From assembly GCA_026399095.1 (NCBI GenBank), contig JAPLRP010000006.1:1-55427 (forward strand): a stretch of DNA of 55,427 nt. Direction: 5' to 3'. The translations under genes were made by a program, and so were the position numbers. This DNA is from Methylococcales bacterium (GTDB lineage: Bacteria; Pseudomonadota; Gammaproteobacteria; Methylococcales; Methylomonadaceae). Below, piece by piece: positions 10,178-27,864 of the stretch (the first letter of the stretch is position 1; each line of letters opens with the position of its first letter). The notes below the pieces were generated by a model that searched no databases, was not told the origin of the DNA, and saw nothing but the letters and a program-made list of their open reading frames with translations.

Positions 10178-10528
10178 TTAACTATTGGTATTTACTTGTT
10201 CAACGAAGCTATTTAATGCAATGAAGGCAAATAAAATAGCTATCACCCCAAAAAATTGCCTGACTTTAATTTAAAGTCATTTTCGCACAGCTATACTAAG
10301 TTGGGTAAACTTAATCCCAGCATAAATAATTCTATATCCATAAACAATTTAATGTAAATGGATGTTAAGATTCAAAAACAGTTTTAATTTTTTCAAACCA
10401 ATAAGACTCTATTAAAAGAACATAATCATTCGATTTTAAAAAATGCACGACTCGGCTAATAATTGCCATAGCTGGCATTATTAATGCTTTATATTTAGTA
10501 AAACTAAACATCACATAGCTAAAGTCAC
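10178..10528. other. Divergent intergenic region between dusA and the ATP-grasp gene
   Basis: 351 AT-rich bases between two divergent genes, so promoters for both should lie here. The clearest structure is a near-perfect dyad at 10261-10279 (TGACTTTAA, one T, TTAAAGTCA). I see no gene or RNA in it. Confidence 0.5.
10261..10279. promoter_or_regulatory. 9-bp dyad, possible operator
   Basis: TGACTTTAA-T-TTAAAGTCA lies in the dusA/ATP-grasp divergent promoter region. Its symmetry suits a dimeric regulator site, but there is no second copy that I noticed and no known regulator consensus is recognised. Confidence 0.25.
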
Positions 10529-11980
10529 ATGAAATCAATCTGGAAAAACTATAAAACTGACATTGCCTACGATGAACTGATGTATTCAGAGTTTCAATCA
10601 CGCGCAGTTAGTCACAGACTATGTCAATATTTAGATTCGCTTAAAAAAGAGGATATAGATAAAAGAAAAATAGCTGCAGAACTGGCAATTATGGAAATGG
10701 GTATTAGTTTTACTGTCTACAGCGATGAAGGAAACATCGATAGAGCATGGCCTTTCGACATTATTCCTCGCATTATTGATGCTAAAGAATGGCGAATTAT
10801 AGAAAAAGGTTTAAAACAACGCTTAACCGCTCTTAACTGCTTTATAAGTGATGTTTATAACGAGCAGGCCTTTATTAAGGACGGAAAAATGCCTGGAGAA
10901 ATCATCAATAGCTCCAAGAATTTTCGTAAAGAATGCATCGGCATGAAGCCCCGTCATAATACTTGGGCCAATATATGTGGCACTGATTTGGTGCGAGACA
11001 AAGATGGCATCATGTATGTATTAGAAGATAACTTAAGGGTTCCCTCGGGCGTTTCTTATATGCTTGAAAATCGGATTATCACCAAACGAGTATTTCCTGA
11101 ACTATTGCAAGATATTGATATTTTGCCTATTGATGATTACCCAACTCATTTGCATGAAATGCTAACGTCAATTGCTCCGCACCAAAATGGGCAAGTCACC
11201 TGCGCTTTATTAACTCCGGGCATTTATAACTCAGCTTATTTTGAACATGCCTATTTAGCACAACAAATTGGTGCGCAGTTGGTTGAAGGTAGTGATCTGG
11301 TCGTCAACGATGATGACTGTGTCTATATGCGAACTATTAACGGACTTGAAAAAGTTGATGTCATATACCGCCGTATTGATGATGATTTTCTTGACCCTGA
11401 AGTGTTCCGCCCGGATTCAACTCTTGGCGTTCGGGGATTGATGCGTGCATGGAAAGCTGGCAATGTGGCTTTGGCTAATGCGCCCGGAGCTGGTGTTGCG
11501 GATGATAAAGTTGTCTATGCTTATGTACCGGAAATGATCCGATACTATTTAAATGAAGAGCCCATATTGCCCAATGTACCTACCTATTTGTGTGGCAATG
11601 AAGATGATCTGGCGTATGTTTTGGAACACTTGGCCGAGCTGGTAGTAAAACCAGCTAATGAATCAGGTGGTTATGGAATGCTCGTTGGCCCCCATGCAAC
11701 AGCAAAAGAAGTAGAAAATTTCCGTCAAATTATTCAAAAAGATCCTCGCAATTATATTGCGCAACCTACTTTGTCAATTTCAACCGCACCAACTCTGTGC
11801 AAGGGTAAGCTGGAGCCGCGTCATATTGATTTGCGGCCTTTTATATTACAAGGTGAAAATACTTTTGTAACGGCAGGTGGTTTAACCCGCGTGGCACTTA
11901 AAAAAGGGTCTTTAGTCGTGAATTCTTCTCAGGGTGGTGGCAGTAAAGATACATGGATTATTAACATGGAGGAAAGCTAA
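10529..11980 (+). CDS. Circularly permuted ATP-grasp protein (type 2)
   Basis: A 483-residue protein of the circularly permuted ATP-grasp family. Landmarks are MEMGISFTVYSDEGNIDRAWPFDI in the N-terminal part, WANICGTDLVRDKDG and VLEDNLRVPSGVSYMLENR in the middle, VDVIYRRIDDDFLDPE, VVKPANESGGYGM and PRHIDLRPF near the end. ATP-grasp enzymes form amide bonds through acyl-phosphates; this family is predicted to join amino acids or peptides, but its substrate is unknown. The stop overlaps the ATG of the alpha-E gene by one base (TAATG). It is homologous to residues 1-490 of the fusion protein at 16348-18918, giving two ATP-grasp copies in the locus. Confidence 0.9.
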   Translation: MKSIWKNYKTDIAYDELMYSEFQSRAVSHRLCQYLDSLKKEDIDKRKIAAELAIMEMGISFTVYSDEGNIDRAWPFDIIPRIIDAKEWRIIEKGLKQRLTALNCFISDVYNEQAFIKDGKMPGEIINSSKNFRKECIGMKPRHNTWANICGTDLVRDKDGIMYVLEDNLRVPSGVSYMLENRIITKRVFPELLQDIDILPIDDYPTHLHEMLTSIAPHQNGQVTCALLTPGIYNSAYFEHAYLAQQIGAQLVEGSDLVVNDDDCVYMRTINGLEKVDVIYRRIDDDFLDPEVFRPDSTLGVRGLMRAWKAGNVALANAPGAGVADDKVVYAYVPEMIRYYLNEEPILPNVPTYLCGNEDDLAYVLEHLAELVVKPANESGGYGMLVGPHATAKEVENFRQIIQKDPRNYIAQPTLSISTAPTLCKGKLEPRHIDLRPFILQGENTFVTAGGLTRVALKKGSLVVNSSQGGGSKDTWIINMEES

Positions 11981-12909
11981 TGTTATCTCGCTCAGCAGAA
12001 CGCCTTTATTGGCTGGCTCGTTATCTGGAACGTACAGAAAACATAGCAAGACTGGTTAATGTGCACATGAATTTATTAATGGACTTACCGAAAGGTGTTG
12101 AAATGAGTTGGCGCCAACTTATTTTGATTAATGCATCGCAAGAAGAGTTCTACAAAAAAAATACTGTCGCCAACGAGCGTAATATTACTCGATTCTTATT
12201 GGCTGATGAAAGTTATTCTGGCTCTTTAATTTCGTCACTAAGTGCTGCAAGGGAAAATATACGTACTTCAAGAGAATTATTACCTGATGAGGCTTGGGAA
12301 CAAGTCAACGAGATGTATTTGTACGCAAAAAACAACCTGGAAACGGTTGCTAACAGGCGTCATCGTGTACTATTTCTTAATGAGATTTTAAAAGGCTGTC
12401 AACGCTTTACCGGTTTATTATCAGGTTATATGAGCCATAATGCCCCTTATCGATTTATTCGCTTGGGCAGAAACATTGAACGTGCTGACATGACCAGTCG
12501 AATTTTAGATTTGGCGTCATTACTGCTATCAGAATCACGGAGTGATGAGGTTAGGCAATATGAAACCATTCTGTGGATGAATATTTTAAAGGCGCTTAAC
12601 GCCTTGCTAATATATCGTCAACAAATGCATAGCAGTGTCAACGGTGATGATGTTCTTAATTTTCTGTTGCAGGATAACACGTTGCCACGTTCAGTAAGCT
12701 GCTGTATTTCTGAACTGTCAGATTGTATTAGTAGGCTTCCTAATAACGATGACTTGCCACTAGTTCTTATTGAGTTGGAAGAATATGTAAAAGCAATCGA
12801 TACCCGACAAACCACTCAAGAACAATTACGTGGAATATTGGATGATTTACAAAATAAACTAGGAGCGTTTCATAATAAAATAGCTGATAACTGGTTTTTA
12901 AGTAATTAA
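11980..12909 (+). CDS. Alpha-E domain protein
   Basis: A 309-residue, almost all-helical protein. It opens with MLSRSAERLYWLARYLERTEN, the hallmark of the alpha-E family, and has a second conserved helix with FIRLGRNIERADMTSRILD. Alpha-E proteins nearly always sit beside, or are fused to, circularly permuted ATP-grasp proteins, and are assumed to be a partner subunit. Here the coupling is explicit: the start codon overlaps the ATP-grasp stop. No catalytic residues are known for the family. A convergent hairpin follows at 12938-12969. Confidence 0.9.
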   Translation: MLSRSAERLYWLARYLERTENIARLVNVHMNLLMDLPKGVEMSWRQLILINASQEEFYKKNTVANERNITRFLLADESYSGSLISSLSAARENIRTSRELLPDEAWEQVNEMYLYAKNNLETVANRRHRVLFLNEILKGCQRFTGLLSGYMSHNAPYRFIRLGRNIERADMTSRILDLASLLLSESRSDEVRQYETILWMNILKALNALLIYRQQMHSSVNGDDVLNFLLQDNTLPRSVSCCISELSDCISRLPNNDDLPLVLIELEEYVKAIDTRQTTQEQLRGILDDLQNKLGAFHNKIADNWFLSN

Positions 12910-12937
12910 AGGCTATCAAAAACTATCATTAAGCCGA

Positions 12938-12969
12938 AGATGGGGAGCAGTTTTAACTGAAACCCATCT
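12938..12969. terminator. Hairpin between convergent genes
   Basis: AGATGGG (12938-12944) pairs with CCCATCT (12963-12969), with an inner CAGTT/AACTG stem. It lies between the ends of two convergent genes, so a bidirectional terminator role is likely, but no clear U-run follows on either strand. Confidence 0.35.
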
Positions 12970-12999
12970 AGCAAGCCACCAATAAAGCCAGCGGTGACT

Positions 13000-13755
13000 C
13001 TATAAGTTTACTCGCATAGGTTTTATCAATGTCTTATCCAACGAAGGCAGGGCACCAATTGCTTCACGTAGTTTAGCTTCCCAACTACGCCTTAACTGCA
13101 CCATATAATCATCATCATCATCAAAGCAATAATACTCTTCAAGGCTAAAGCTGTTTTTTCGATAAACCAACATTTCAACAGGCGAGCCAACGCTTGCATT
13201 ACTGCGGATAGTTGAATCCATTGAAACCAAACAACAACGTGCAGCTTCGTCAATAGAGGTATTTAACTTAAGAAACCGATCTAAAATAGGCTTACCGTAC
13301 TTACTTTCACCTATTTGTAAAAAAGGTGTACTGGCTGAACTGGTTATGCTATTACCTTCAGCATAAACCATATAAGCACCATGCGGATCAGAACCGATTT
13401 GACCCGCTAATATAAAGCTAGCAGTAGGATTAAAAGCTGATTGACCCTGAGAACTTTTGTGTTGTTTTTGTTTTTCTACGCTGACATGTCCTAAATAATC
13501 AGCTGCTTCAAACAAACTTTCTACTGTATTCAGATTGACTTCTGCATTCTTCATTTTATCGCGGTGTAATTGCTCCAAAACCGCTTGTGTAGTTGCAAGA
13601 TTGCCAGCGCAAAGCAACACTATCTTTCGGTCGCTTAAAGTATCAAATGCATGCATTTTGCCGTGTGTACTTACATTATCAATACCGGCATTGGTTCTTG
13701 AATCAGAAACGAGAATTAGTCCTTCGTCAATAGAAGCTGCAATACAATAAGTCAT
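13000..13755 (-). CDS. Anbu, proteasome-like N-terminal nucleophile hydrolase
   Basis: A 251-residue relative of proteasome beta subunits and HslV. The N-terminus MTYCIAASIDEGLILVSDSR exposes Thr2 as the nucleophile after Met removal, with Asp18 (SDSRTNAG) and Lys33 (GKMHAF) at the expected catalytic positions. RTNAGIDN followed by KMH is characteristic of the Anbu group. Anbu proteins form ring- or helix-like assemblies; their natural substrate is not established, and no HslU- or Clp-type unfoldase is nearby. It follows the transglutaminase gene by 34 bases on the same strand. Its setting, with ATP-grasp, alpha-E and transglutaminase genes, is the standard Anbu neighbourhood. Confidence 0.92.
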   Translation of the reverse strand: MTYCIAASIDEGLILVSDSRTNAGIDNVSTHGKMHAFDTLSDRKIVLLCAGNLATTQAVLEQLHRDKMKNAEVNLNTVESLFEAADYLGHVSVEKQKQHKSSQGQSAFNPTASFILAGQIGSDPHGAYMVYAEGNSITSSASTPFLQIGESKYGKPILDRFLKLNTSIDEAARCCLVSMDSTIRSNASVGSPVEMLVYRKNSFSLEEYYCFDDDDDYMVQLRRSWEAKLREAIGALPSLDKTLIKPMRVNL

Positions 13756-13789
13756 AGACGTTTAATCAGTGTTAATAAAAATTAATCCG

Positions 13790-14578
13790 CTAATTATCCA
13801 GCAAATCGACGTGAACGTCCATGCTATTCAGCAAACAACCAGAACCGAACTGATGAAATATGGCAACATCTGCCGCATCGCGGCCAAAGGCAATTATAAC
13901 CCTTCCTCCACGTGGTTCAATTTGTGTAGGGTCAAAAGTATACCAACGATCACCAATATAAGCCTCAAACCAGGCATGTAAATCCATAGGCTGAAGTCCA
14001 TATAAATATCCAACTACCAGTCTTGCAGGTATACTGATACTTCGGCATAGTGCTATCGCCACTTGAGCAAGATCTCTACAGACTCCATGCCCACACAGAT
14101 GAACTTCAACCGCCGACAAGGGAAAATCACTAGAGCCCGGGATATACTGTATAGAATCTTGGACCCACTCGTTTATTTTGCTTACTTGATCGTAACCTGG
14201 CTGAGTGTTATTTGTTATTTCTCTGGCAAGATCGCCAAACCGATCAGATTCACAATAGCGACTAGGTAATAAAAAGGGTAGAACATTGTTTGGAAGGTGT
14301 TGTATTTCCACAAAATACTTTCCTGGAGCAACATCAATATTGTCTGCAACAATGACATCTGTTGAGGTATATATCAAAAAATTACCCATTGGCACCATTA
14401 AACGCTGTAACGAATTACCAAAACTATCAGTACTCTCAATCATAGGTATAACCGGCTTTATGATATAAACCTCGCGATTAATCCATTGTTGAATGCCTCT
14501 AAACGGGCGTAGCATTAAAATTAATACGCTCGCTTCAAGAATATGAAAACGAAGACTGCAACTTACCCTTAATTTCAT
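13790..14578 (-). CDS. Transglutaminase-like protein (Anbu-locus type)
   Basis: A 262-residue protein with an N-terminal beta region starting MKLRVSCSLRF and ILMLRPF, then a transglutaminase/papain-like core. The triad is visible: Cys167 in GHGVCRDLAQ, His201 in DLHAWFEAY and Asp216 in TFDPTQ. The fold can act as a peptidase, amidase or transamidase; which reaction applies here is unknown. It lies between the ParA-like ATPase and Anbu, all on the minus strand with short gaps (50 and 34 bases), which suggests one transcript. There is no signal peptide, so a cytoplasmic role is likely. Confidence 0.9.
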   Translation of the reverse strand: MKLRVSCSLRFHILEASVLILMLRPFRGIQQWINREVYIIKPVIPMIESTDSFGNSLQRLMVPMGNFLIYTSTDVIVADNIDVAPGKYFVEIQHLPNNVLPFLLPSRYCESDRFGDLAREITNNTQPGYDQVSKINEWVQDSIQYIPGSSDFPLSAVEVHLCGHGVCRDLAQVAIALCRSISIPARLVVGYLYGLQPMDLHAWFEAYIGDRWYTFDPTQIEPRGGRVIIAFGRDAADVAIFHQFGSGCLLNSMDVHVDLLDN

Positions 14579-14628
14579 CTTAGAAAGACTTGCCTGGACA
14601 ATTGTGAATCTTTGGGCTCACGATCATC

Positions 14629-15324
14629 TTAAATACCTAAAGACTCAATCTCTTTATATGCATGATTTAACCAAATTTTAACCCGCTGTCTTTCTAGTAA
14701 GCCCAAGGCATCAAGACTTTCTGCATCTTTATTTTTTGCTGCCCAAAAACTATAACTATTACTATCTATTTTAGTCATTACAGGCGCATGAAGACGCTTT
14801 AAAGTCATAACTTTTGCATCAAAAGCTAAAGCTCGTTCTTTTACACCGGAAAACTCCAGGATATTAAAATGCTCATCACGTAACTGGTTTTGTACCAAGA
14901 CATAATTTAAACGTGTACCAAATTGTGTGAGTAATTTATTAAGCAAATCTACTGAATCTTTACCTGAATCCATCACATTCCAGTAATAAATGGTAATTCC
15001 AAGTTCTTCTGCCAACTCCAAAACACCTGATTCATTTATCCACTTCGCTAAAGGATGATGTGTTTGTGCCGCCAAATCAACCAAAATGCGCTGCTCAGGT
15101 TGCTCCGAAGCTGCCTCCATAATGGAATCTAGACTCTGATAATTATCAATAATTGTTGGCGAGGCATAGTCAGCATAAAATCGCAGTAATGATCCATGTG
15201 ATTTATCAGTATCAAAACCAATAAATGGTAAGTCATGATCAATCATATATTGCGCCAATAGCCGGGCAACAACAGATTTTCCTACACCGCCTTTTTCGCC
15301 GCCTATTAGATGAATAGTAGCCAT
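14629..15324 (-). CDS. ParA/MinD-like P-loop ATPase
   Basis: A 231-residue protein starting MATIHLIGGEKGGVGKSVVA, with the deviant Walker A box GGEKGGVGKS at residues 8-17 (two lysines, as in ParA/MinD/MobD proteins). GFDTDKSHGSLLRFY follows where a Walker A' Asp is expected, and LVDLAAQTHHPLAKW fits Walker B. ParA-like ATPases dimerise on ATP and position cargo; MobD-like members sit in mobilisation operons. No ParB, plasmid or flagellar partner lies next to it. It sits between two transglutaminase-like genes in the Anbu locus, so a role there is possible but is inference. Confidence 0.75.
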   Translation of the reverse strand: MATIHLIGGEKGGVGKSVVARLLAQYMIDHDLPFIGFDTDKSHGSLLRFYADYASPTIIDNYQSLDSIMEAASEQPEQRILVDLAAQTHHPLAKWINESGVLELAEELGITIYYWNVMDSGKDSVDLLNKLLTQFGTRLNYVLVQNQLRDEHFNILEFSGVKERALAFDAKVMTLKRLHAPVMTKIDSNSYSFWAAKNKDAESLDALGLLERQRVKIWLNHAYKEIESLGI

Positions 15325-15415
15325 ATAAACCCCTTTAAGTTAAATTAATTAGATGTTAAGAAAGACGCAAGTCTAAGATTAAGCAAGGACTGTAACTCTT
15401 TCCTTGGTACTTAAG

Positions 15416-16351
15416 TCATTCCAGTCTCAATACATCGACCGACACCGAAAGCGTATGCTGTCCTCCACCAAAAGCGATACCTTTGAGCGGAGTGACATCT
15501 GCATAATCACGCCCCCATGCCAAGGTAATATGTTGATCAAGCGGCACGGTATTGTTGGTTGGATCAAAATCCAACCAACCAGTGCCAGGAATATAAACTG
15601 AAAACCAGGCATGAGATGCATCTGCACCAACAAGACGGGTTTTGCCAGGTTCGGGTAAAGTTTCAACATAGCCGCTTATGTAGCGGGCGGCTATTCCATA
15701 AGCACGTAAACAACCAATGGCTAAATGCGCAAAATCCTGACACACACCTCTGCGAAAGCTGAGTACTTCTGCCAAAGGTGTAGCAATAGTGGTAAAGGTT
15801 GGGTCGTATGTAAAGTCTTTGTATATACGCCCCATTAAATCATGCACAACATCCACGAGCGCTCGCCCCGGCAGGAATGAATGTTGAGCAAAGTCAGCAA
15901 GAGCTGGTGTCACGGTTACCATAGGCGAATCAAGAAGATATTGTTTGGCATCCAACATCTCAAGGATACGCTCCTGATCTTGCGATTGAATTTGACTCTG
16001 CTGACTTTGTGATTGTCCATGCAAAGTTGTACTCTGTAAAAGATTACGAACCTGTTCCCATGGAATTTGGTTAAACAAATCCAGGTTATTTTGCCTTGGA
16101 AATATTGTGACTTCGCTCACCGCTGTTACAATTAACTTACTATGTGGTTGCTGTACTGCGAAATAAACAACACGATTGCCAAAAAAATCAATGCGCTCTC
16201 GAAAATCCATCGGTGAAGGCGTAATGTCAAAAAGACTACTGTCACAATGCTGACGCCAAAAATTGCGCGGCTGTAATCTGGCCTCATTTTGGCATAACCC
16301 TACCGACTGACTATAGTGATAAAAAGTACTATGTGTAATTCGATATTTCAA
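15416..16351 (-). CDS. Transglutaminase-like protein with Q-rich linker
   Basis: A 311-residue protein. Residues 1-90 are the bacterial transglutaminase-like N-terminal beta domain (MKYRITHSTFYHYSQSV). A Gln/Ser-rich linker spans about 112-126. The core has Cys204 in FRRGVCQDFAH, His247 in ASHAWFSVY and Asp263 in LDFDPTNN. It overlaps the stop of the ATP-grasp/alpha-E fusion by four bases (ATGA), a strong sign that the two proteins act together. Compared with the other two transglutaminases here, it is the one most tightly linked to an ATP-grasp gene. Confidence 0.92.
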   Translation of the reverse strand: MKYRITHSTFYHYSQSVGLCQNEARLQPRNFWRQHCDSSLFDITPSPMDFRERIDFFGNRVVYFAVQQPHSKLIVTAVSEVTIFPRQNNLDLFNQIPWEQVRNLLQSTTLHGQSQSQQSQIQSQDQERILEMLDAKQYLLDSPMVTVTPALADFAQHSFLPGRALVDVVHDLMGRIYKDFTYDPTFTTIATPLAEVLSFRRGVCQDFAHLAIGCLRAYGIAARYISGYVETLPEPGKTRLVGADASHAWFSVYIPGTGWLDFDPTNNTVPLDQHITLAWGRDYADVTPLKGIAFGGGQHTLSVSVDVLRLE

Positions 16352-18918
16352 AGTTCGTCCTCTGATGCATTAAGCACCATCAACTGAGAAGTTTGAGAAT
16401 GGCTAAAATAGGCTTCGGCAATCACCTCTGCAAGTCGCCATAAAAGATCAGTTATATTCGAAAGCAACATCTCAAAATCAGTATAAATACCATCATCTTC
16501 ATTCACTTGGGTTAATTCATGCAAGTTACACAAGCGCAAACTGGTGTATGCTTTTAAAATCAAACGCTCCTCTTCACTTAAATGACTTTTGCCTTTTCCT
16601 TTTGGTAATGCACTCACATGAATCGATAAATTATGCAGTTGATACGCAACTGAACGGGGATGAGTTTCATCTAATAGCAGTAACTCCAACACTAAAGGCA
16701 ACTGGATATAAGAACGGTATCGTCGCTGATAGATGATTAAACTATCGGTTGAAATCAAAACCTCCTCAAGCACCTGATTTTGCAAAGCGTCTTCATGTCG
16801 CAGAGCCAAAGTAGAACGAAGTAAGGCAATAAGAGCTAACGCACGCTCAAGCCGGCGACCACTATCCAGCATTAACCAAGCAGCTTCACGGGTCATACTT
16901 TCATTGGTTAAACCAGTAAATGCGACAATACCAGTAATTAAATCATCCAGATTATTCTGCAATTGCTCGATTTTTAAATCCGTATTTATTATCCGTTGTT
17001 GCCATCTACGTTGAATATTATCAACACTTCGCCAAGTATCTTGCGACCAAAAATCACGAATACTAAACGCCGCTTGAAAAAAAGCCTGAATATTCGAACT
17101 CAACGAACCGTGCCGATTGCTATCTTTAACTAACGATAGCAATTCAATATCAGGTGTTTTCAGGAGTTGATCATCGCACTTTACAAAGCCCGGATAAGTG
17201 CCAGTCACTTGAGTTAAAGTACGGAGTAAAACTTTTAAACATTCATTATCAACTGGATCTTTAAATTCCAGTGTTTCTCTGGATTTTTGCAATACAGTAC
17301 GCAATAATCGGGTAACGGCTTCAGTTCGTTCGAGATGCCTTCCTACCCAAAAAAGATTGTCCGCAGCTCGACTGGTCAATGGCTCTGTAACCGCATTAAT
17401 CAATTGATTACGTTTCGGCTGAGTCCATAAACTGATTGTTTTATCGGGCTCAGATGCTAATACCCACGTGTCTTTACTGATTCCTCCGGCTTGATTTGAA
17501 ACAATAAAGTTATCTTTTTGGCGGGCAACACGGGTAAGTCCTCCGGGCATTACCTCATAACCATCACCGCTTGCGACAACAAAGCTCCGTAACACTGCAT
17601 TACGTGGTTCAATCTGATGATCAACAAACGCTGGTAAAGTTGAGAAACTAACTTGTTCCTGGCCAACAAACAAATGTGGCTTGGCTAAAATTTGACTTCG
17701 CAAAAGTTCTTTTTCTTTAATACTTAACTCACCACCAAAAACAGCATAATTTCCAGAGCCTCTATTAATAGGTTTAATAACCATATTATCAATATGTTGC
17801 AATACAAAATCACGTTCACGGCGTTGACCGCACCACCAAGTGGCAATGGAAGGCAGCTTAAGTTCTTGATTTAAATAATACCGGGCGAGTCTGGGCAAAA
17901 AAGCCAACAAAGCTGGATTTTCAAGAATACTACTCCCTAAGGGGTTGGCAATTGCAACATTTCCTCGTCGAACAACCTCTAACAATCCGGCAATACCAAG
18001 CTTTGATCCACTACGCATTTCCAAAGGATCACAAAATGAATCATCGACTCGCCGTAAAATAACATCAACAGCCTGAAGACCCTCCAGTGATTTAAGCCAT
18101 ACACGACCATCACGAACCGTCAAATCACCACCTTGAACTAAGGTATAACCATGATAAGCAGCTAAATAGGCATGTTCAAAATAGGTTTCATTAAGCGGGC
18201 CTGGTGTCAGGATAACTATTCTGGGATCTTCTTTATTGTGCGGTGCTATATCAACAAGTCCCTTATGAAGCGACTTAAAAAAACCGGATAAACGATGCAC
18301 TTGTGTTTCCCGGAAAATATCAGGCAAAACCCGCGTCATCACTGTACGATTTTCCAACGCATAGCCTGAACCTGAGGGTGCCTGTGTCCGGTCATCCAAC
18401 ACCCACATACGGCCATTCGGACCGCGAGCAAGATTTGCTGAATAAATAGTTAAATGGCGCTTTTGATTTTGCAAAGCATCCATACAAGGCTGTAAAAACC
18501 CTTCATGGCCGAATATTAACTCAGGAGGCAGCAAACCTTTTTTAAGTAAAGTTTGTTTACCATAGACATCTTTAAGTATTAAATCGAGTAAGTCAGCTCG
18601 TTGTTTCAGACCCGCTTCAATAACCGACCATTCTTCACTACTGATTAACAGAGGAACGGGATCAAGCCGCCAGGGTCTGGTAAGATTTTGTGAATCACCG
18701 TAAACATTGTAAGTAACACCATTTTCGCGCAATAACCGCTGTGCTTCCCTCCGTCGTAGTTCAAGCTTCTCGATGCCCATACTGTCAAGCGCAGCCATAA
18801 AGCGCTCCCAATAAGGCAACGCTTTATTTTTAGTAGCATACATTTCATCGTATATGCCAAGTTGTGTCGCGTAATATTGCGCTCCAATATCTTCGGCAGA
18901 ACTATTATTATTACGCAC
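16348..18918 (-). CDS. Circularly permuted ATP-grasp / alpha-E fusion protein
   Basis: An 856-residue fusion. Residues 1 to about 490 are a circularly permuted ATP-grasp domain (RPWRLDPVP, WVLDDRTQAPSGSGYALENR, VDVILRRVDDSFCDPLE, MVIKPINRGSGNYA, EPRNAVLRSFV). From about 515 an alpha-E domain follows, opening with LTSRAADNLFWVGRHLERTEA and repeating the ERALALIALLRS helix pattern. It combines in one chain what 10529-12909 encodes as two. The gene is translationally coupled to the transglutaminase at its 3' end. The enzyme is predicted to form amide bonds, but the product is unknown. ATG at 18918 is preceded by a purine-rich AAGGAAAAATACG, a usable Shine-Dalgarno site. Confidence 0.92.
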   Translation of the reverse strand: MRNNNSSAEDIGAQYYATQLGIYDEMYATKNKALPYWERFMAALDSMGIEKLELRRREAQRLLRENGVTYNVYGDSQNLTRPWRLDPVPLLISSEEWSVIEAGLKQRADLLDLILKDVYGKQTLLKKGLLPPELIFGHEGFLQPCMDALQNQKRHLTIYSANLARGPNGRMWVLDDRTQAPSGSGYALENRTVMTRVLPDIFRETQVHRLSGFFKSLHKGLVDIAPHNKEDPRIVILTPGPLNETYFEHAYLAAYHGYTLVQGGDLTVRDGRVWLKSLEGLQAVDVILRRVDDSFCDPLEMRSGSKLGIAGLLEVVRRGNVAIANPLGSSILENPALLAFLPRLARYYLNQELKLPSIATWWCGQRRERDFVLQHIDNMVIKPINRGSGNYAVFGGELSIKEKELLRSQILAKPHLFVGQEQVSFSTLPAFVDHQIEPRNAVLRSFVVASGDGYEVMPGGLTRVARQKDNFIVSNQAGGISKDTWVLASEPDKTISLWTQPKRNQLINAVTEPLTSRAADNLFWVGRHLERTEAVTRLLRTVLQKSRETLEFKDPVDNECLKVLLRTLTQVTGTYPGFVKCDDQLLKTPDIELLSLVKDSNRHGSLSSNIQAFFQAAFSIRDFWSQDTWRSVDNIQRRWQQRIINTDLKIEQLQNNLDDLITGIVAFTGLTNESMTREAAWLMLDSGRRLERALALIALLRSTLALRHEDALQNQVLEEVLISTDSLIIYQRRYRSYIQLPLVLELLLLDETHPRSVAYQLHNLSIHVSALPKGKGKSHLSEEERLILKAYTSLRLCNLHELTQVNEDDGIYTDFEMLLSNITDLLWRLAEVIAEAYFSHSQTSQLMVLNASEDEL

Positions 18919-19100
18919 GTATTTTTCCTTATACCTTATTCATTATCGAGTGTCTTGCCCTTTACCTAGGGCTTCCTTCACGATTACCGACTTGATGCCA
19001 TCAATTTAAAAAAGGCTACCTCGGTCTTTTAGGATAGGTTTTAAATTAAAGCAGGTTATTTTTTAATCCAACATTTCTTTCATCTTTCATCAAGTTTAAC

Positions 19101-20408
19101 CTAATAAGTTCTTTGACTAATTTCTTGATAGTGTCGCATTTTCTCACCTGTATAAATTTGGCGTGGCCTATAAATAGTAACTTGTTCGCCATGAATCATT
19201 TCGCGCCAATGAGCCAGCCATCCAGGCATACGACCAATTGCAAACAAAACAGTAAACATGTTGGTGGGAATACCGGCTGCACGTAAAATCAATCCAGAGT
19301 AAAAATCAACATTAGGATATAATTTTCTGGATATAAAATAATCATCTTTCAGCGCTATTTCTTCAATTCGTCTCGCAATATCCAACAACGGGTCATTGAT
19401 GCCGGGTTTATTAAGTAGCTTGTCACAATGCTGCTTTAATACTTGAGCTCGTGGATCAAAGTTTTTATAAACACGATGACCAAAGCCCATTAACCGACAC
19501 CCCGAATTCTTATCTTTAGCCTGATTAATAAATTCTGTTCCATCCCCCCCTTCAGCATGAATCTGTTCGAGCATTTTGATCACCTCTTGGTTGGCTCCAC
19601 CATGACGAGGCCCCCAAAGAGCAGCAATTCCTGCAGTAATAACCGCATAAACATTTGCCATACTTGAACCGGCAGTTCGCACAGAAGAAGTACTGCAGTT
19701 CTGCTCATGATCCGCATGCAGTATCAACAGCATATCAATTGCACGCACGATATCAGTATCCAGTTGATAATCACGTACAGGCGATGAAAACATCATATTC
19801 ATAAAGTTACTGGTATATTTGTACTTGATAGAAGGATATACCAATGGTTCACCAATTGATTTTTTATACGAAAATGCAGCGATAGTCCGTACTTGAGAAA
19901 CCAAATTAGCCACAATTTGTATTTCAGTCGTTTCATCCAATCGATCAGGTACTGGATAAAAAGTCGACAATGAAGCAACCATGGTGGTAAGTATCCCCAT
20001 AGGATGTGAACCACGAGGAAAGCCATTAAAAAAATGATGCATATCTTCATGAATAATTGAAGACTCATTAAGACGTGTCGAAAAACTTAACAATTGATCA
20101 GAGGTCGGCAATTCACCATAAAGCAGCAAATAAGAAACTTCTACAAATCGGGAATGTTCAGCCAATTCTTCTATCGGATAACCACGATACCGCAATATAC
20201 CTTTTTCACCATCTATATAAGTGATCGCGCTTTCACAGGCACCGGTATTACCATAACCATCATCCAAGGTTACATAGCCGGTTTGGGTACGTAATTTGGT
20301 AATATCAATAGCTTTTTCACCTTCAACACCCATATATGTTGGCAATGAATAGCTCTTATCGTCTAGTATTAAGGTAGCTGGATTTAACAGTTTTAATTTA
20401 TCGCTCAT
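19101..20408 (-). CDS. gltA: Citrate synthase GltA (type II)
   Basis: A 435-residue citrate synthase, close to the 427 of E. coli GltA. Active-site segments are visible: ADHEQNCSTSSVR, ALWGPRHGGANQEV, GFGHRVYKNFDPRA and PNVDFYSGLI. It condenses oxaloacetate with acetyl-CoA at the entry to the TCA cycle. A strong AGGAG precedes the ATG. It sits between the ATP-grasp/alpha-E fusion and the transglutaminase-DUF2126 gene, on the same strand, an odd place for a central metabolic gene. A hairpin upstream (20465-20491) may separate it from the DUF2126 transcript. Confidence 0.96.
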   Translation of the reverse strand: MSDKLKLLNPATLILDDKSYSLPTYMGVEGEKAIDITKLRTQTGYVTLDDGYGNTGACESAITYIDGEKGILRYRGYPIEELAEHSRFVEVSYLLLYGELPTSDQLLSFSTRLNESSIIHEDMHHFFNGFPRGSHPMGILTTMVASLSTFYPVPDRLDETTEIQIVANLVSQVRTIAAFSYKKSIGEPLVYPSIKYKYTSNFMNMMFSSPVRDYQLDTDIVRAIDMLLILHADHEQNCSTSSVRTAGSSMANVYAVITAGIAALWGPRHGGANQEVIKMLEQIHAEGGDGTEFINQAKDKNSGCRLMGFGHRVYKNFDPRAQVLKQHCDKLLNKPGINDPLLDIARRIEEIALKDDYFISRKLYPNVDFYSGLILRAAGIPTNMFTVLFAIGRMPGWLAHWREMIHGEQVTIYRPRQIYTGEKMRHYQEISQRTY

Positions 20409-20464
20409 TTAAATAGATCTCCTGGCAAAGTATTGTTAATACTCTATGATTGACTTATTGGACA

Positions 20465-20491
20465 CCGGGTTAGGCAAAAAACATAACCCGG
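20465..20491 (-). terminator. Hairpin between the DUF2126 gene and gltA
   Basis: CCGGGTTA (20465-20472) pairs with TAACCCGG (20484-20491) around an 11-base loop, 18 bases from the annotated boundary (after the DUF2126 stop and before gltA). No U-run follows on the minus strand, so it may be a terminator, an attenuator or an RNA-stability element. Confidence 0.4.
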
Positions 20492-20508
20492 CTGATAGCT
20501 TTAGTTGA

Positions 20509-23500
20509 TTAGCGATTCCGATGACGTAAATCCAAGGTAAATGGATATTCTGTACTCAATTCTTCCACAGGAGGCGCCATAGCTCTGGGAGCTTCATCAC
20601 TGATACTGAACTTTGCCAGCAACGGTTTATCAGATGCCGCAACCCGAGATGTCGCTAATGGTGGCCTAATTATAACCCCTGGCGTATGTCCATAATCCCA
20701 AAACCGTGTCATGCGTCGAGTTTCCGCTGCATAATCATTGACAGGAAAATCATCGTAACTACGACCACCAGGATGAGCAACATAATAGGTGCACCCACCC
20801 ACAGAACGGCCATTCCAAGTATCAATTACATCAAATACCAAAGGCACATGTGGAGCGATAGTTGGATGCAATGCTGAAGGTGGTTGCCATGCCCGGTAAC
20901 GCACGCCGGCAACAAATTCTCCTTTGCGTCCCGTATTACGCATCGGTAAACGCCTGCCATTACAGGTTATGACATAACGTCCCTCAGTATATCCCGTTAC
21001 CAGTACTTGTACACGCTCGACGGATGAATCCACATATCGCGCAGTGCCAGTACTGCTAACTTCTTCGCCCAGAACATGCCAAGGCTCAATCGCGAAACGC
21101 AATTCCAAATCAATACCGTCAATCAAGGCATTGCCATAGCGGGGAAAACGAAACTCGAAAAACGGTGCCAGCCATTCCAGATCAAAACCAAAACCTGCAC
21201 GCTGAAGGTCTTTAGTCACTTGTTTCATGTCTTCATGAACATAATGTGGCAACATAAATTGGTCATGCAATTCAGTTCCCCAACGGACTAAATCGTGCTT
21301 ATAAGGTTCACGCCAAAACCAGGCAATTAAAGAACGCAGCAACACAATTTGTACCAACGACATCTGAGCATGTGGTGGCATTTCAAAAGAACGCAATTCC
21401 AGAATGCCAAGCCTTCCTGTTGAACTATCTGGTGAATATAACTTATCAACACAAAATTCGGAGCGATGAGTATTCCCGGTTATATCTGTCAGCAAATGAC
21501 GTAGCAATCGGTCAACCAGCCAAGGCTCTGGAACTTCACCTTCAGGCATTTGTTGAAAGGCAATTTCCAGCTCATATAGTTTTTCATCACGACCTTCATC
21601 TACTCGGGGTGCTTGACTGGTAGGCCCTATAAACATACCCGAAAACAAATAAGACAAACCCGGATGATGCTGCCAATAAGTAATCAAACTACGTAATAAA
21701 TCGGGGCGACGTAAAAGCGGACTGTCAACCGGCATTTCCGCACCCATGGTAATATGATTACCTCCGCCAGTGCCAGTGTGGCGACCATCCTGCATAAACT
21801 TTTCAGTACCCAGTCTGGTAAGATGCGCTTGTTCGTAAATGATGGTATTTTTTTCAACCAACTCTTCCCACGTTTTAGATGGGTGAATATTGACTTCAAT
21901 TACGCCAGGATCAGGCGTAACCATTAAGCGTTCAATCCGATAATCCCGAGGCGGTTCATAACCTTCAAGCACGACCGGTAAAGCAAGACTTTCTGCGGTA
22001 GCTTCAATAGCAGCGACCAGTTCAAGATAATGCTCGAGTGTAGCCAACGGCGGCATAAAAACATACAAACGACCTTCTCGAGCTTCTATACACATAGCAG
22101 TGTGCGGAACCTCTACCTCTTCAGGTAAATCGTCACCAATTTCCTGTCCAATAATTTCAGGGTGTTCATTAATTTTAGGCTCAATATGGCTGTATCTACG
22201 TGTGACTTCACCATAATAATCGCCCAATTCCGGTAATTCGCCAAAGAGACTTTGAGGCTCTTGAGAGTCACGTTTGTCAGGTGCAACCCACGGCAGGCTC
22301 TCTAAAGGTAAACGCATGCCCATCGGGGAATTCCCGGGGATCAGAAACATTGCGTCTCGTCTAAAATCCCAAGGACCACTTTTCCAAACTTGTTCAGACC
22401 AATTCCACTTAATCGGCAAAGTAAAGCCTACCGGTTGATCTAACCCAACATCCAATAACTTGGTTAAGGTTTTACGTTCAATAGAATCTTTTAAATTACT
22501 TTTTAAAGGATCAATGTTTGTCGGTAAGGTGCCTTCTTGCCATAAATAATAAAAAGTATCTTCAAAAGCAGTCACTATGTACTTAGATTTAACACCCAAA
22601 CGCTGGCTAATTTGATAGATAAATTTTTGCGCCTGTTTTATCGTATGACCATAATCTTTATTAATGTCGGCCAGTAACGCCGGGTTCCGCCAAATAGACG
22701 TACCGTCTTTTCTCCAAAAAATACCATATTGCCAGCGTGGCAAAGGCTCTCCCGGATACCATTTACCTTGGCCATAATGGAGCATGGCTCCTTTTGCAAA
22801 CACATCTCTCAGACGAATGGTCAATTGTTGTGCACGCTCACGCTTATTTGCACCATCAGCGTGCGTATTCCATTCGTCGCCCTCCATGTCATCAACCGAA
22901 ACAAAGGTGGGCTCTCCTCCCATCGTCAGGCGAACATCATCCTCCAACAAACGTTTATCAACCGCTTTTCCAAGTGCATCAATGTGGAACCACTGTTCAT
23001 CAGTATAAGGCTTGGTTACTCTAGGATCTTCGTGCAAACGATCTACTGCGTTGCTAAATTCAAATTCTACTTCACATTTATCTGTGCCTCCGGTTACTGG
23101 TGCGGCACTAATTGGATCAGGCGTACAAGCCAGAGGAATATGACCCTCACCAGCCAATAAACCAGAGGTTGGATCTAGCCCAATCCAACCAGCACCAGGC
23201 ACATAAACTTCTGTCCACGCATGTAAATCAGTAAAGTCCTGTTCCGGACCGGACGGTCCATCCAGTGACTTTATATCTGCCGTCAACTGAACCAGATACC
23301 CGGATACAAAACGTGCAGCCAAACCAAGATGTCTCAGTGCCTGCACCAAAAGCCATGCTGAATCACGACATGAACCACTGCGTATTTTAAGTGTTTCTTC
23401 AGCACTTTGGACACCCACTTCCATACGGATGTTATAGCTTATTGCTTCAAAAACAATGCGATTAATATAAACCAAAAAATCGTTTATAGAACGCTTACTG

Positions 23501-23907
23501 GTATCTAATTCTTTTACCCATTCTGTTAATAAAGGGCCTTTTTCAGATAACTCAAGATAGGGTTGTAGCTCTTTTAGAGTCAGTGAATCGTAAGTAAATG
23601 GATAGTTCTCAGCATATTCCTCAACAAAAAAATCAAACGGATTTATCACTGTCATATCAGCAATGACTTCTACTTCAACGCTAAGTTTTTGGCATTTATC
23701 AGGAAAAACAACCCGCGCAACAATATTACCAAAAGGATCTTGTTGCCAATTAATAAAATGATTTTTTGGTTCAATACGCAACGCATAGGCCTTAATAGGC
23801 GTACGACTATGAACTGCCGGACGAAGTCTAAAGACATGAGGGGACAAAGACACAGGTCTATCAAAGTTGTATATCGTTTTGTGACGAATGGCGACACGTA
23901 TGGTCAT
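20509..23907 (-). CDS. Large transglutaminase-DUF2126 protein
   Basis: A 1132-residue protein with a transglutaminase-like N-terminal domain (1-90), a catalytic core with Cys180 in SGSCRDSAWLL, His229 in TDLHAWTEVY and Asp245 in GLDPTSG, and a long DUF2126 region from about 300 to the C-terminus. The latter includes DVRLTMGGEPTFVSVDD (amidoligase-like start), NIHPSKTWEEL and TGGGNHITMG, a Gly-rich stretch resembling the amidoligase fold proposed for this family. Known relatives co-occur with ATP-grasp/alpha-E genes. It would thus couple an amide-cleaving or transferring domain with an amide-forming one. The reaction has not been shown. Start ATG at 23907. Confidence 0.9.
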   Translation of the reverse strand: MTIRVAIRHKTIYNFDRPVSLSPHVFRLRPAVHSRTPIKAYALRIEPKNHFINWQQDPFGNIVARVVFPDKCQKLSVEVEVIADMTVINPFDFFVEEYAENYPFTYDSLTLKELQPYLELSEKGPLLTEWVKELDTSKRSINDFLVYINRIVFEAISYNIRMEVGVQSAEETLKIRSGSCRDSAWLLVQALRHLGLAARFVSGYLVQLTADIKSLDGPSGPEQDFTDLHAWTEVYVPGAGWIGLDPTSGLLAGEGHIPLACTPDPISAAPVTGGTDKCEVEFEFSNAVDRLHEDPRVTKPYTDEQWFHIDALGKAVDKRLLEDDVRLTMGGEPTFVSVDDMEGDEWNTHADGANKRERAQQLTIRLRDVFAKGAMLHYGQGKWYPGEPLPRWQYGIFWRKDGTSIWRNPALLADINKDYGHTIKQAQKFIYQISQRLGVKSKYIVTAFEDTFYYLWQEGTLPTNIDPLKSNLKDSIERKTLTKLLDVGLDQPVGFTLPIKWNWSEQVWKSGPWDFRRDAMFLIPGNSPMGMRLPLESLPWVAPDKRDSQEPQSLFGELPELGDYYGEVTRRYSHIEPKINEHPEIIGQEIGDDLPEEVEVPHTAMCIEAREGRLYVFMPPLATLEHYLELVAAIEATAESLALPVVLEGYEPPRDYRIERLMVTPDPGVIEVNIHPSKTWEELVEKNTIIYEQAHLTRLGTEKFMQDGRHTGTGGGNHITMGAEMPVDSPLLRRPDLLRSLITYWQHHPGLSYLFSGMFIGPTSQAPRVDEGRDEKLYELEIAFQQMPEGEVPEPWLVDRLLRHLLTDITGNTHRSEFCVDKLYSPDSSTGRLGILELRSFEMPPHAQMSLVQIVLLRSLIAWFWREPYKHDLVRWGTELHDQFMLPHYVHEDMKQVTKDLQRAGFGFDLEWLAPFFEFRFPRYGNALIDGIDLELRFAIEPWHVLGEEVSSTGTARYVDSSVERVQVLVTGYTEGRYVITCNGRRLPMRNTGRKGEFVAGVRYRAWQPPSALHPTIAPHVPLVFDVIDTWNGRSVGGCTYYVAHPGGRSYDDFPVNDYAAETRRMTRFWDYGHTPGVIIRPPLATSRVAASDKPLLAKFSISDEAPRAMAPPVEELSTEYPFTLDLRHRNR

Positions 23908-24244
23908 AATCAGTTTTCCTATTGCCCGATGGTTAGTTTGGCTTTTCTCAACAACTGCGTTGAATTAATAAGCTACATGTAATAGTGTTAGCATGAATTG
24001 TTCCAAAATATAATTTTATCAAAACAAAAAAATAAACCTATTAATAGCCTTGTTAGCTGACTAAACCTAAACGACTTTGGCTCGTTGTGTTATTCACAAC
24101 AATCAAACTCAAACTTTTTAATGCCCTACTTAAACGTAATATAAGTATTTCAGTTTCATTTATTCCAATTGGAACTTGTCGTTAGCGATCAAAAGGCCAT
24201 TCACTTCTAGTGTGATTTAAGTTTATCTAGACCAATCTTACTTT
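23908..24244. other. Intergenic stretch upstream of the DUF2126 gene
   Basis: 337 AT-rich bases between the start of the DUF2126 gene and the stop of the membrane protein gene. The DUF2126 promoter must be here or further up. No coding frame or structured RNA is evident. Confidence 0.5.
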
Positions 24245-25794: not shown

Positions 25795-27864
25795 ATGAAT
25801 AAAACACTAAAAAATGCTATCTGGATTCTAATTGCTATCATTGGTGCTTCTTCAATCGGTGGCATTGCAATCACTCGTGGAGAAAATATTAACGCGCTTT
25901 GGTTCATAGCCGCAGCTCTTTGTGTTTATGCAATTGCATACCGCTTTTACGCAAGCTGGATTGCTACTACCGTTCTAATGATTGATGATACAAGATCTAC
26001 GCCAGCAGAGCGCCTTGATAACGGTCATGATTTTGTGCCCACCCACAAATGGATAGTATTTGGCCACCATTTCGCAGCCATCGCAGGCCCCGGTCCTTTA
26101 GTAGGACCGACACTGGCTGCACAGTTTGGTTATCTGCCCGGAACACTTTGGATATTATTTGGCGCAGTACTAGGCGGCTGTGTTCAAGATATGGTGACGT
26201 TATTTTTATCTACCCGACGTGACGCCAAAAGCTTGGGACAAATTGCACGCGAAGAATTGGGACCGCTCGGCGGAACGGCAGCCTTAATAGGCACGTTTGC
26301 CATTATGATTATCCTCATTGCCGTACTCGGACTAGTGGTAGTAAATGCAATGAAACATAGCCCATGGGCCACGTTTACCGTATCTGCAACCATTCCAATT
26401 GCCATGATTGTGGGCGTTTACATGCGTTTTATTCGTCCAGGCCAAGTCCTTGAAGCATCAGCTTTAGGGGTTATATTATTATTGTTATCTGTAGTGGGCG
26501 GTCGATTTATCGATCAACATGAAACCTTACGTTTACTTTTCAATCACGAGGGTTTGACATTGGCTTGGTGGGTAATGGGATACGGTTTTGCCGCAGCAAT
26601 TTTACCCGTCTGGTTGTTATTAGCCCCTCGTGATTACTTATCGACTTACATGAAACTAGGCACCATTTCCCTCTTGGCTGTGGCTATTATCATGCTACAA
26701 CCCAACATAAAAATGCCGGCAATCACTCAGTTTGTAGACGGCACAGGGCCTATTTTTGGGGGTAAATTATTTCCATTTGTCTTTATAACCATCGCGTGCG
26801 GCGCTATTTCAGGCTTTCACGCACTGATTGCTTCAGGAACCACACCCAAACTACTGAGTAATGAACGCGATATACGTATGATTGGCTATGGTGGTATGTT
26901 ATTGGAGTCATTTGTTGCCATGATGGCAATGATTGCTGCTACCGTGCTGGATCCCGGTGTGTTTTTTGCCATTAACAGTTCTGCAGGTGTCGTTGGTTCC
27001 GATGCTATTAATGCAGTCGCCAAAATATCTTCTTGGGGCTATCCGGTGACTGTAGAGCAAATGCAAAACCTTGCTCATCAAATGGGCGAAGCCACTTTGT
27101 TTGCTCGTACAGGAGGCGCACCCTCATTGGCAGTTGGAATGGCAAGTATTTTCGGCAGCGCATTTGGAGAGAGTCTACTGGCTTTGTGGTATCACTTTGC
27201 CATAATGTTTGAAGCTATCTTTATCTTAACAACTTTAGATGCAGGAACACGTGTTGGCCGTTTCATGTTACAGGATATGCTAGGTAATATCTGGCCCAAA
27301 ATGGGAGAAACCTCCTGGAGGCCTTCTGTTATATTTACCAGTGCTATTGTAGTATCAGGTTGGGGTTATTTTCTTTATATCGGTGTGATAGATCCAAATG
27401 GTGGCGTCAATATCTTATGGCCATTATTTGGAATTGCAAATCAAATGCTGGCAGCAATAGCACTTTCTGTAGCAACAGGCATTTTAGTAAAATCCGGTAA
27501 ATTAAAATATGCTTGGGTTACTGGTTTACCGCTTATCTGGCTAATTACCATTACCAGTTCAGCTGCATGGCAAAAAATTACCAGTGACGATATCCGTATC
27601 GGTTTTTTTTCCGCCGCCAATGATTTAACTCATAAACTGGCGAGTGGTCTTTTACCACCAGAAAAAGCATCTATTGCTCCTCAATTGATATTCAATCTAC
27701 ATTTAGATGCATGGCTAACGTTGTTTTTTGTTAGCTTACTATGGTTGATTATTTTTGATATGCTGCGTGTTTGTTCTCGGCACCTATCTGGTAAACCCGT
27801 ATTACCCTTAACGGAATCGGCGCATATTCCAAGCCCTTCAGTCGAAGATTGGGTTAGGGATTAA
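25795..27864 (+). CDS. cstA: Carbon starvation protein CstA (pyruvate/peptide transporter family)
   Basis: A 689-residue inner-membrane protein with about 16-18 hydrophobic segments, close to the 701 of E. coli CstA. Family landmarks are HHFAAIAGPGPLVGPTLAAQFGYLPG, GGCVQDMVTLFLS and FHALIASGTTPKLLSNE. Members (CstA, BtsT) take up pyruvate or peptides. The stop overlaps the ATG of ybdD by one base (TTAATG), and the HIT gene is three bases upstream. Carbon-source control cannot be read from this sequence. Confidence 0.93.
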   Translation: MNKTLKNAIWILIAIIGASSIGGIAITRGENINALWFIAAALCVYAIAYRFYASWIATTVLMIDDTRSTPAERLDNGHDFVPTHKWIVFGHHFAAIAGPGPLVGPTLAAQFGYLPGTLWILFGAVLGGCVQDMVTLFLSTRRDAKSLGQIAREELGPLGGTAALIGTFAIMIILIAVLGLVVVNAMKHSPWATFTVSATIPIAMIVGVYMRFIRPGQVLEASALGVILLLLSVVGGRFIDQHETLRLLFNHEGLTLAWWVMGYGFAAAILPVWLLLAPRDYLSTYMKLGTISLLAVAIIMLQPNIKMPAITQFVDGTGPIFGGKLFPFVFITIACGAISGFHALIASGTTPKLLSNERDIRMIGYGGMLLESFVAMMAMIAATVLDPGVFFAINSSAGVVGSDAINAVAKISSWGYPVTVEQMQNLAHQMGEATLFARTGGAPSLAVGMASIFGSAFGESLLALWYHFAIMFEAIFILTTLDAGTRVGRFMLQDMLGNIWPKMGETSWRPSVIFTSAIVVSGWGYFLYIGVIDPNGGVNILWPLFGIANQMLAAIALSVATGILVKSGKLKYAWVTGLPLIWLITITSSAAWQKITSDDIRIGFFSAANDLTHKLASGLLPPEKASIAPQLIFNLHLDAWLTLFFVSLLWLIIFDMLRVCSRHLSGKPVLPLTESAHIPSPSVEDWVRD

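Follow-up and report, generated by a model that had tools for sequence, protein, structure and literature searches.

Gene content of the locus

We analysed nine genes (positions 10,529 to 23,907) in a 55,427-nucleotide stretch of contig JAPLRP010000006.1, hereafter called the window, which belongs to a methane-oxidising Methylococcales bacterium with a genome of 2.77 Mb (94 contigs, 98% complete). The genes encode a split pair of a circularly permuted ATP-grasp ligase and an alpha-E protein, a fusion of the same two domains, three transglutaminase-fold proteins, the proteasome-like hydrolase Anbu, a P-loop ATPase and a citrate synthase. An earlier note, made from the sequence alone, had taken them for a single expanded Anbu-type locus with two ATP-grasp/alpha-E modules. 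All genes named in that note were confirmed within the 13.4 kb by profile matches, but it had missed the DUF2126 domain, which makes up most of the largest transglutaminase-fold protein (1132 residues; hereafter the giant), and the intervening citrate synthase gene. The locus consists of two stereotyped, already known operons side by side, namely module I, headed by the split ATP-grasp gene, and module II, headed by the giant; it is ordinary in kind, with lineage-specific extras.

The minus strand is read in the order giant, citrate synthase, fusion, TGb, P-loop ATPase, TGa and Anbu. The conserved order of an Anbu operon was not found, as the split ATP-grasp and alpha-E genes lie on the plus strand and the transglutaminase and Anbu genes on the minus strand; the parts of such an operon are present, but their order is not.

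The Anbu assignment relies on matches to five solved chains, each bearing the name Anbu or peptidase (E-values from 1e-67 to 5e-47; 5lox is named Anbu), since the PF00227 score of 22.4 bits exactly equals the cut-off. The protein has the proteasome-like fold with N-terminal Thr1, Asp17 and Lys32/33, and the corresponding residues T2, D18 and K33 (Met counted), which were compared with YbAnbu, are invariant in eight sequences. The Cys-His-Asp residues ascribed to all three transglutaminase-fold proteins were found again as C, HAW and DPT motifs when their translations were read; among type-I transglutaminases, C occurs in 34, HAW in 37 and a DPT-like motif in 29 of 38 sequences. TGa falls into an order-specific clade with long branches. 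The giant matches PF09899 over the full profile with 1340 bits and belongs to this Pfam family. For the alpha-E protein, the predicted model is all-helical with a predicted local distance difference test score (pLDDT) of 88; a Foldseek comparison with the PDB gave no match at E≤0.001 and hence no function by fold, so the fold may be unsolved in the PDB. PADLOC contains no models for Anbu or the P-loop ATPase, and GSP_synth was found in 0 of 21 relatives and 5 of 114 members of the class.

Table 1 Predicted genes and promoter motifs of the locus, in window coordinates.
Feature	Position	Strand	Basis
Sigma-54-type -24/-12 promoter motif, split operon	10473..10488	+	predicted; 2 mismatches to TGGCACN5TTGCW
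Split circularly permuted ATP-grasp ligase, module I	10529..11980	+	PF14403, 556 bits; 3n6x; E-x-N and GGYG kept
Split alpha-E protein, module I	11980..12909	+	PF04168, 270 bits
Anbu, proteasome-like Ntn hydrolase	13000..13755	-	PF00227 and solved Anbu chains; Thr1, Asp17, Lys32
Transglutaminase-fold protein TGa, adjoins Anbu	13790..14578	-	transglutaminase-core profile
TraL/MinD-like P-loop ATPase	14629..15324	-	KGGVGKS
Transglutaminase-fold protein TGb, module II	15416..16351	-	start overlaps stop of fusion gene
ATP-grasp/alpha-E fusion, module II	16348..18918	-	PF14403, 515 bits; PF04168, 227 bits
Citrate synthase	19101..20408	-	between giant and fusion
Transglutaminase with DUF2126 putative amidoligase (giant), head of module II	20509..23907	-	PF09899
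Sigma-54-type -24/-12 promoter motif, DUF2126 operon	23990..24005	-	predicted; 2 mismatches

The split and fused ATP-grasp domains are not equivalent

In a tree of 101 ATP-grasp sequences, 64 split and 37 fused copies were separated by one branch with a value of 100 in the Shimodaira-Hasegawa-like approximate likelihood ratio test (SH-aLRT); the tree was made by a quick method with SH-aLRT as the only support measure, contains several long fused branches and draws 12 of its 37 fused rows from the order of the window. The phylogeny proposed in the earlier note places the two copies in separate lineages. In the window, the two copies are 37% identical over 464 columns. A recent duplication within the genus was ruled out, because the lineages are separate throughout the phylum sample.

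The two lineages differ at the motifs GGYG (positions 367-370) and E-D-N-x-R (153-157; numbers refer to the domain, those of the split protein being higher by 13), which are present in all 64 split copies, including that of the window, and in none of the 37 fused ones. E153 is kept in one fused copy and N155 and Y369 in none, R occupies position 155 in 32 of 37, and the fused copy of the window reads D-D-R and S-G-N-Y at the motif positions; it lacks both E-x-N and GGYG, which its split counterpart has. The C part is also more variable in the fused copies (mean entropy 1.93 vs 1.05 in the split ones). In ATP-grasp enzymes, E-x-N is a metal-binding motif, and we take D318, E330 and N332 of GspS to be metal-binding residues; E. 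coli Gss has the letters D, E and N at these positions. An hhalign comparison put the fused motif in register with the GspS residues, albeit without significance (probabilities of 0.1-1.4%). The fused ATP-grasp is probably a pseudoenzyme, and we read it as a pseudo-ATP-grasp that would be under selection for another role. Since the fused copies lack the motifs that all 64 split copies keep, the two amide-forming ATP-grasp steps proposed in the earlier note are not supported.

Two operon types recur across the phylum

The phylum-wide sample comprised 249 genomes, from which 60 stretches (L164-L223, about 19-20 kb each) were labelled with iterated profiles. Two operon types recur on them: ATP-grasp, alpha-E, transglutaminase and Anbu, often without Anbu or the transglutaminase (module I), and transglutaminase-DUF2126, ATP-grasp/alpha-E fusion and transglutaminase (module II). 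That such genes co-occur, as the note had stated, was thereby borne out, albeit as two operons and not as one expanded locus. The fetched sample has 25 fused genes, of which 22 adjoin a giant and 23 a transglutaminase, and an Anbu start lies within 6 kb of two. Anbu is also present on 26 of the 50 stretches carrying a split ATP-grasp. The suggested neighbourhood comparison did reveal split and fused forms together: among 29 split stretches whose genomes have DUF2126, 15 also hold part of module II, so the window is one of many side-by-side cases. Three stretches (L215, L219 and L221) have Anbu inside or beside module II. Genes of module II are also present in two laboratory methanotrophs, Methylotuvimicrobium buryatense 5G (L129) and Methylobacter tundripaludum SV96 (L107).

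ATP-grasp was found in 136, DUF2126 in 71 and Anbu (E≤1e-20) in 84 of the 249 genomes. DUF2126 never occurs without ATP-grasp (0/71), and 67 of the 71 DUF2126 genomes have two or more ATP-grasps; among the matches listed, each of them has a split-size copy with an open frame of 407-616 residues, with the exception of G247, whose frame has 1368 residues and whose stretch L174 nevertheless shows a separate alpha-E gene. DUF2126 is nested within ATP-grasp occurrence, regardless of Anbu, and the profiles of the two ATP-grasps are nested and not unrelated. Two ATP-grasps are not special to the locus of the window, since they occur in 75 of 249 genomes and since 15 of the 29 stretches mentioned above have the modules side by side.

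Anbu is accompanied by ATP-grasp in 83 of 84 genomes. Among 132 ATP-grasp genomes, a count that omits four weak matches (G061, G161, G192 and G220) and does not include G134 with Anbu and no ATP-grasp, 42 have Anbu and DUF2126, 41 Anbu only, 29 DUF2126 only and 20 neither. With this distribution, in which Anbu is absent from 29 of 71 DUF2126 genomes and from 49 of all 132, Anbu is not tied to module II (Fisher p = 0.37). The independence of the two, together with the rarity of Anbu near fused genes (2/25), leaves the idea of a single Anbu shared by both modules without support.

The genus of the window is represented by 25 genomes (that of the window included), of which 22 have two ATP-grasp matches, another two carry three and the last lacks any; among 16 order-mates, four carry a single match and the other twelve carry none. 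Gene order is kept within the genus on many contigs. Seven same-genus loci (L042, L043, L044, L045, L059, L061 and L052) have another kind of split ATP-grasp/alpha-E pair, with about 50% and 30% identity, that adjoins the giant or another Anbu. As the split pair differs between genomes of the genus, this suggests that copies of module I were exchanged within it.

Sigma-54-type motifs precede both operon heads

Promoters were scanned with TGGCACN5TTGCW, keeping GG and GC fixed and allowing at most two mismatches elsewhere. Of the 15 sites in the window, two lie just upstream of the operon heads, one 56 bases before the start of the split ATP-grasp (10,473, plus strand) and one 98 bases before that of the giant (24,005, minus strand). 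At loci gathered by their P-loop protein, with identical proteins counted once, a site was found at 25/25 split and 24/38 giant heads, compared to 0/53 fused, 0/24 alpha-E, 1/62 Anbu, 6/127 transglutaminase, 7/76 P-loop and 35/309 other genes. In the phylum sample, 19/50 split and 9/25 giant heads had a site, compared to 1/25 fused, 2/50 alpha-E, 5/55 transglutaminase, 1/26 Anbu and 50/1101 other genes. Relatedness inflates these promoter counts, as it does the motif counts, and the control genes come from the same loci; only upstream regions of at least 330 bases were counted. After removal of duplicate upstream regions (L033-L147 and the window; minimum length 300 bases), 42/45 split and 29/49 giant heads retained a site. 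Unforced positions were conserved above the flanks, e.g. the first T with 1.8 vs 0.5 bits, although part of this follows from selecting the best-matching site in each region. At five loci (L042, L043, L045, L059 and L061), the giant follows the split pair co-directionally, with a site at the split head and none at the giant.

NtrC-like dyads were found upstream in 16/60 and 9/38 loci with a site, compared to 6% and 5% in shuffles, the window not being among these loci. The host genome encodes sigma-54 and NtrC (730 bits at a cut-off of 558.6). Despite NtrC, the genome has no match to Gln-synt_C (PF00120), which is probably due to an assembly gap. We presume that COG3484, annotated as a proteasome-type protease, corresponds to Anbu. 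According to PMC12316311, this group is over-represented among the sigma-54 regulons predicted for alpha-, beta- and gamma-proteobacteria. In Pseudomonas putida, PP_2685 and PP_2688 are given as upregulated on nitrate vs ammonium in PMC8050072, and PP_2686-2688 as at least 11-fold upregulated under nitrogen limitation in PMC7801951, which terms the operon PP_2685-2688 likely NtrB/NtrC-controlled. For Burkholderia cenocepacia, I35_5080-83, including a large transglutaminase, are reported in PMC5491218 to depend on NtrC and sigma-54. In view of these data, control of module I by nitrogen had been described before; the present addition is that such motifs stand at both operon heads, in the window and its relatives. 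The promoters of the window are fitting for the control published for these two species.

The P-loop ATPase and citrate synthase as lineage-specific extras

The P-loop ATPase has the motif KGGVGKS and a CbiA match below the cut-off; with 48.8 bits, it falls far short of the 360-bit cut-off of the TraL-type model NF010461. The closest named loci by this protein are from Methylococcaceae metagenome-assembled genomes (MAGs), Methylobacter, Methyloglobulus and Crenothrix. At 76 of 80 P-loop loci, a same-strand transglutaminase gene lies within 1.6 kb of the ATPase gene, with such neighbours on both sides at 48 loci and on a single side at 28; the other four have no system gene on the locus. A role as core part of the system is disfavoured, as the ATPase is absent from the 60 phylum stretches and as related P-loop genes occur on six stretches without any system gene (L116, L117, L134, L147, L159 and L160). 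In two further families of the class, the copies (62% and 42% identity) sit among unlabelled genes. The only genomes outside the order with a strong match, G286 and G182, both carry modules I and II elsewhere, and given these two, a tie to the system may exist; the ATPase looks like a Methylococcales add-on. L116 (labelled Verrucomicrobiaceae) and L117 (Moraxellaceae) are MAG contigs whose P-loop proteins are 78% and 83% identical, and may reflect either mislabelled bins or transfer.

Citrate synthase looks like an insertion into module II, since it separates giant and fusion in many relatives and does not lie between them in others (L103, L105 and L115 were compared); it is probably not part of the system. 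A nearby protein (25,795 to 27,864) looks like a putative carbon-starvation/peptide transporter CstA; used as BLAST query, it found no best match in the stretches of the listed relatives, many of which end too early to show it.

Proposed function and alternatives

From the computed gene content, the two ATP-grasp lineages, the motif loss in the fused copies, the nested occurrence and the enriched promoter motifs, we infer catalysis, partnership, nitrogen control in this bacterium and a product as follows. The two operons would belong to a nitrogen-starvation regulon controlled by sigma-54 and probably NtrC, with an active split and a catalytically lost fused ATP-grasp, a reading to which we give an even chance. 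The split ATP-grasp and alpha-E of module I would activate a carboxylate with ATP and join it to an amine, and Anbu and the transglutaminase-fold enzyme would cleave or transfer the resulting amide. In line with this, the ATP-grasp of the Yersinia bercovieri Anbu operon liberates phosphate from ATP. Module II would elaborate on module I; its fused protein, having probably lost ATP-dependent catalysis, might serve as partner or scaffold, and if module II forms an amide bond of its own, DUF2126 would be the likely catalyst. More tentatively, and with the odds somewhat against it, the fused protein could be a conserved pseudo-ligase that works only as partner of the split pair, with DUF2126 performing a second ligation, all within one nitrogen-starvation machine. 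If true, the two operons would form one machine with division of labour.

Several observations weigh against the reading of two nitrogen-controlled operons with a single active ATP-grasp. At the threshold used, 31/50 split and 16/25 giant heads of the phylum sample lack a promoter site, and the scan for NtrC-like dyads found none at the promoters of the window. Module II can be incomplete: in four of the 71 DUF2126 genomes there is just one ATP-grasp, G116 combines DUF2126 with, among the matches listed, two split-size ATP-grasps, and a further eight genomes with two ATP-grasps lack DUF2126. Of the 37 fused copies, 31 share PSGxGY and 22 share DRTQ, so this domain may be active in a new way and not inactive. 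Equating D140, E153 and N155 with the metal residues of GspS is tentative, being based on motif spacing and the biochemistry of GspS. The predicted model of DUF2126 has a pLDDT of 34. A glutamine-synthetase-like kinship of DUF2126 is putative, and GCS2 and glutamine synthetase (GS) are related; an hhalign profile comparison of DUF2126 with the GS and GCS families found nothing, the method being so insensitive that it missed the GCS2-GS kinship too. In PMC7801951, Anbu of P. putida (PP_2685) changed 1.12-, 4.81- and 1.45-fold in three strains, i.e. little in two, and a passage of Fuchs 2017 deems peptide synthesis less likely for Anbu.

Among the alternatives, a nitrogen scavenging cycle fares best, although we consider it unlikely. 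The ligase would link amines or amino compounds to an acyl carrier, from which the hydrolases free ammonia or amino acids, by analogy to the gamma-glutamylation route for putrescine. System genes are grouped with urea and amino-acid uptake genes in the published nitrogen responses of P. putida and B. cenocepacia, and a published marine metagenome association with urea-metabolism domains points in the same direction, but the nine genes of the cluster include no transporter or amine-oxidising enzyme.

Less probable still is a Pup/proteasome-like logic, in which the ligases tag proteins under nitrogen starvation and Anbu degrades or de-tags them so that amino acids are recycled. It would suit the nitrogen control and the homology of Anbu to the proteasome, and tagging was proposed by Iyer 2009 and by Valas and Bourne 2008, as cited in a later paper. 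However, no conserved small tag gene was found in the intergenic spaces and no AAA+ unfoldase among the nine genes scanned, Anbu is missing from 49 of 132 ATP-grasp genomes, and the Anbu proteins tested had no peptidase activity in vitro according to published work. A search for an encoded tag peptide gave no conserved small open reading frame, the sole recurrent matches being two overlapping frames at the start of the giant with 10 loci each.

The least probable alternative, the one favoured in the earlier note, has two active ATP-grasp ligases for two amide-forming steps or two substrates sharing one Anbu; two or three ATP-grasp matches in 24 of 25 same-genus genomes (the two of G011 being fragments) and the equivalents of K361, R423, R441 and D461 retained in the window's fused copy agree with it, but the absence of GGYG and E-x-N from all 37 fused copies and the independence of Anbu and DUF2126, with 29 of 71 DUF2126 genomes lacking Anbu, do not.

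A peptide product was proposed by Iyer 2009, as cited in passages of PMC5666114 and PMC6376114; our search of the open-access literature, with subscription papers outside it, turned up no publication about a product. The Anbu system is widespread, with Anbu in 84 and ATP-grasp in 136 of 249 genomes, and the literature found gives it no proven function. Our analysis contributes three specific points: the two ATP-grasps are not equivalent, occurrence is nested, and promoter motifs are paired. Because the ATP-grasps are non-equivalent, DUF2126 occurs only with a split-size ATP-grasp regardless of Anbu, and promoter motifs precede both heads, the search for a product is narrowed to nitrogen-starved cells, with the split ATP-grasp as catalyst and DUF2126 as second candidate.

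Comparison with known systems

Four protein families of the window are common to the Anbu operon (P. putida PP_2685-2688, Y. bercovieri), which it also resembles in the split ATP-grasp with intact motifs and in the nitrogen-linked promoter motif; unlike in that operon, Anbu and its transglutaminase are encoded on the opposite strand, where they are located downstream of both module II and the P-loop ATPase. The known operon of transglutaminase-DUF2126, fusion and transglutaminase has its three genes in the same order as the window, where, however, citrate synthase is placed between giant and fusion, and the P-loop ATPase, TGa and Anbu follow co-directionally. I35_5080-83 of B. cenocepacia, given in the excerpted source as DUF404/407, DUF403, transglutaminase-like and large transglutaminase-like, shares the split ATP-grasp pair beside transglutaminase genes including a large one, but neither a fused ATP-grasp nor Anbu is listed for that locus in the excerpt. 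Finally, the TraL conjugal transfer family NF010461 is weakly similar to residues 1-149 of the P-loop ATPase, which differs from it in scoring far below the cut-off and in its place beside transglutaminase genes.

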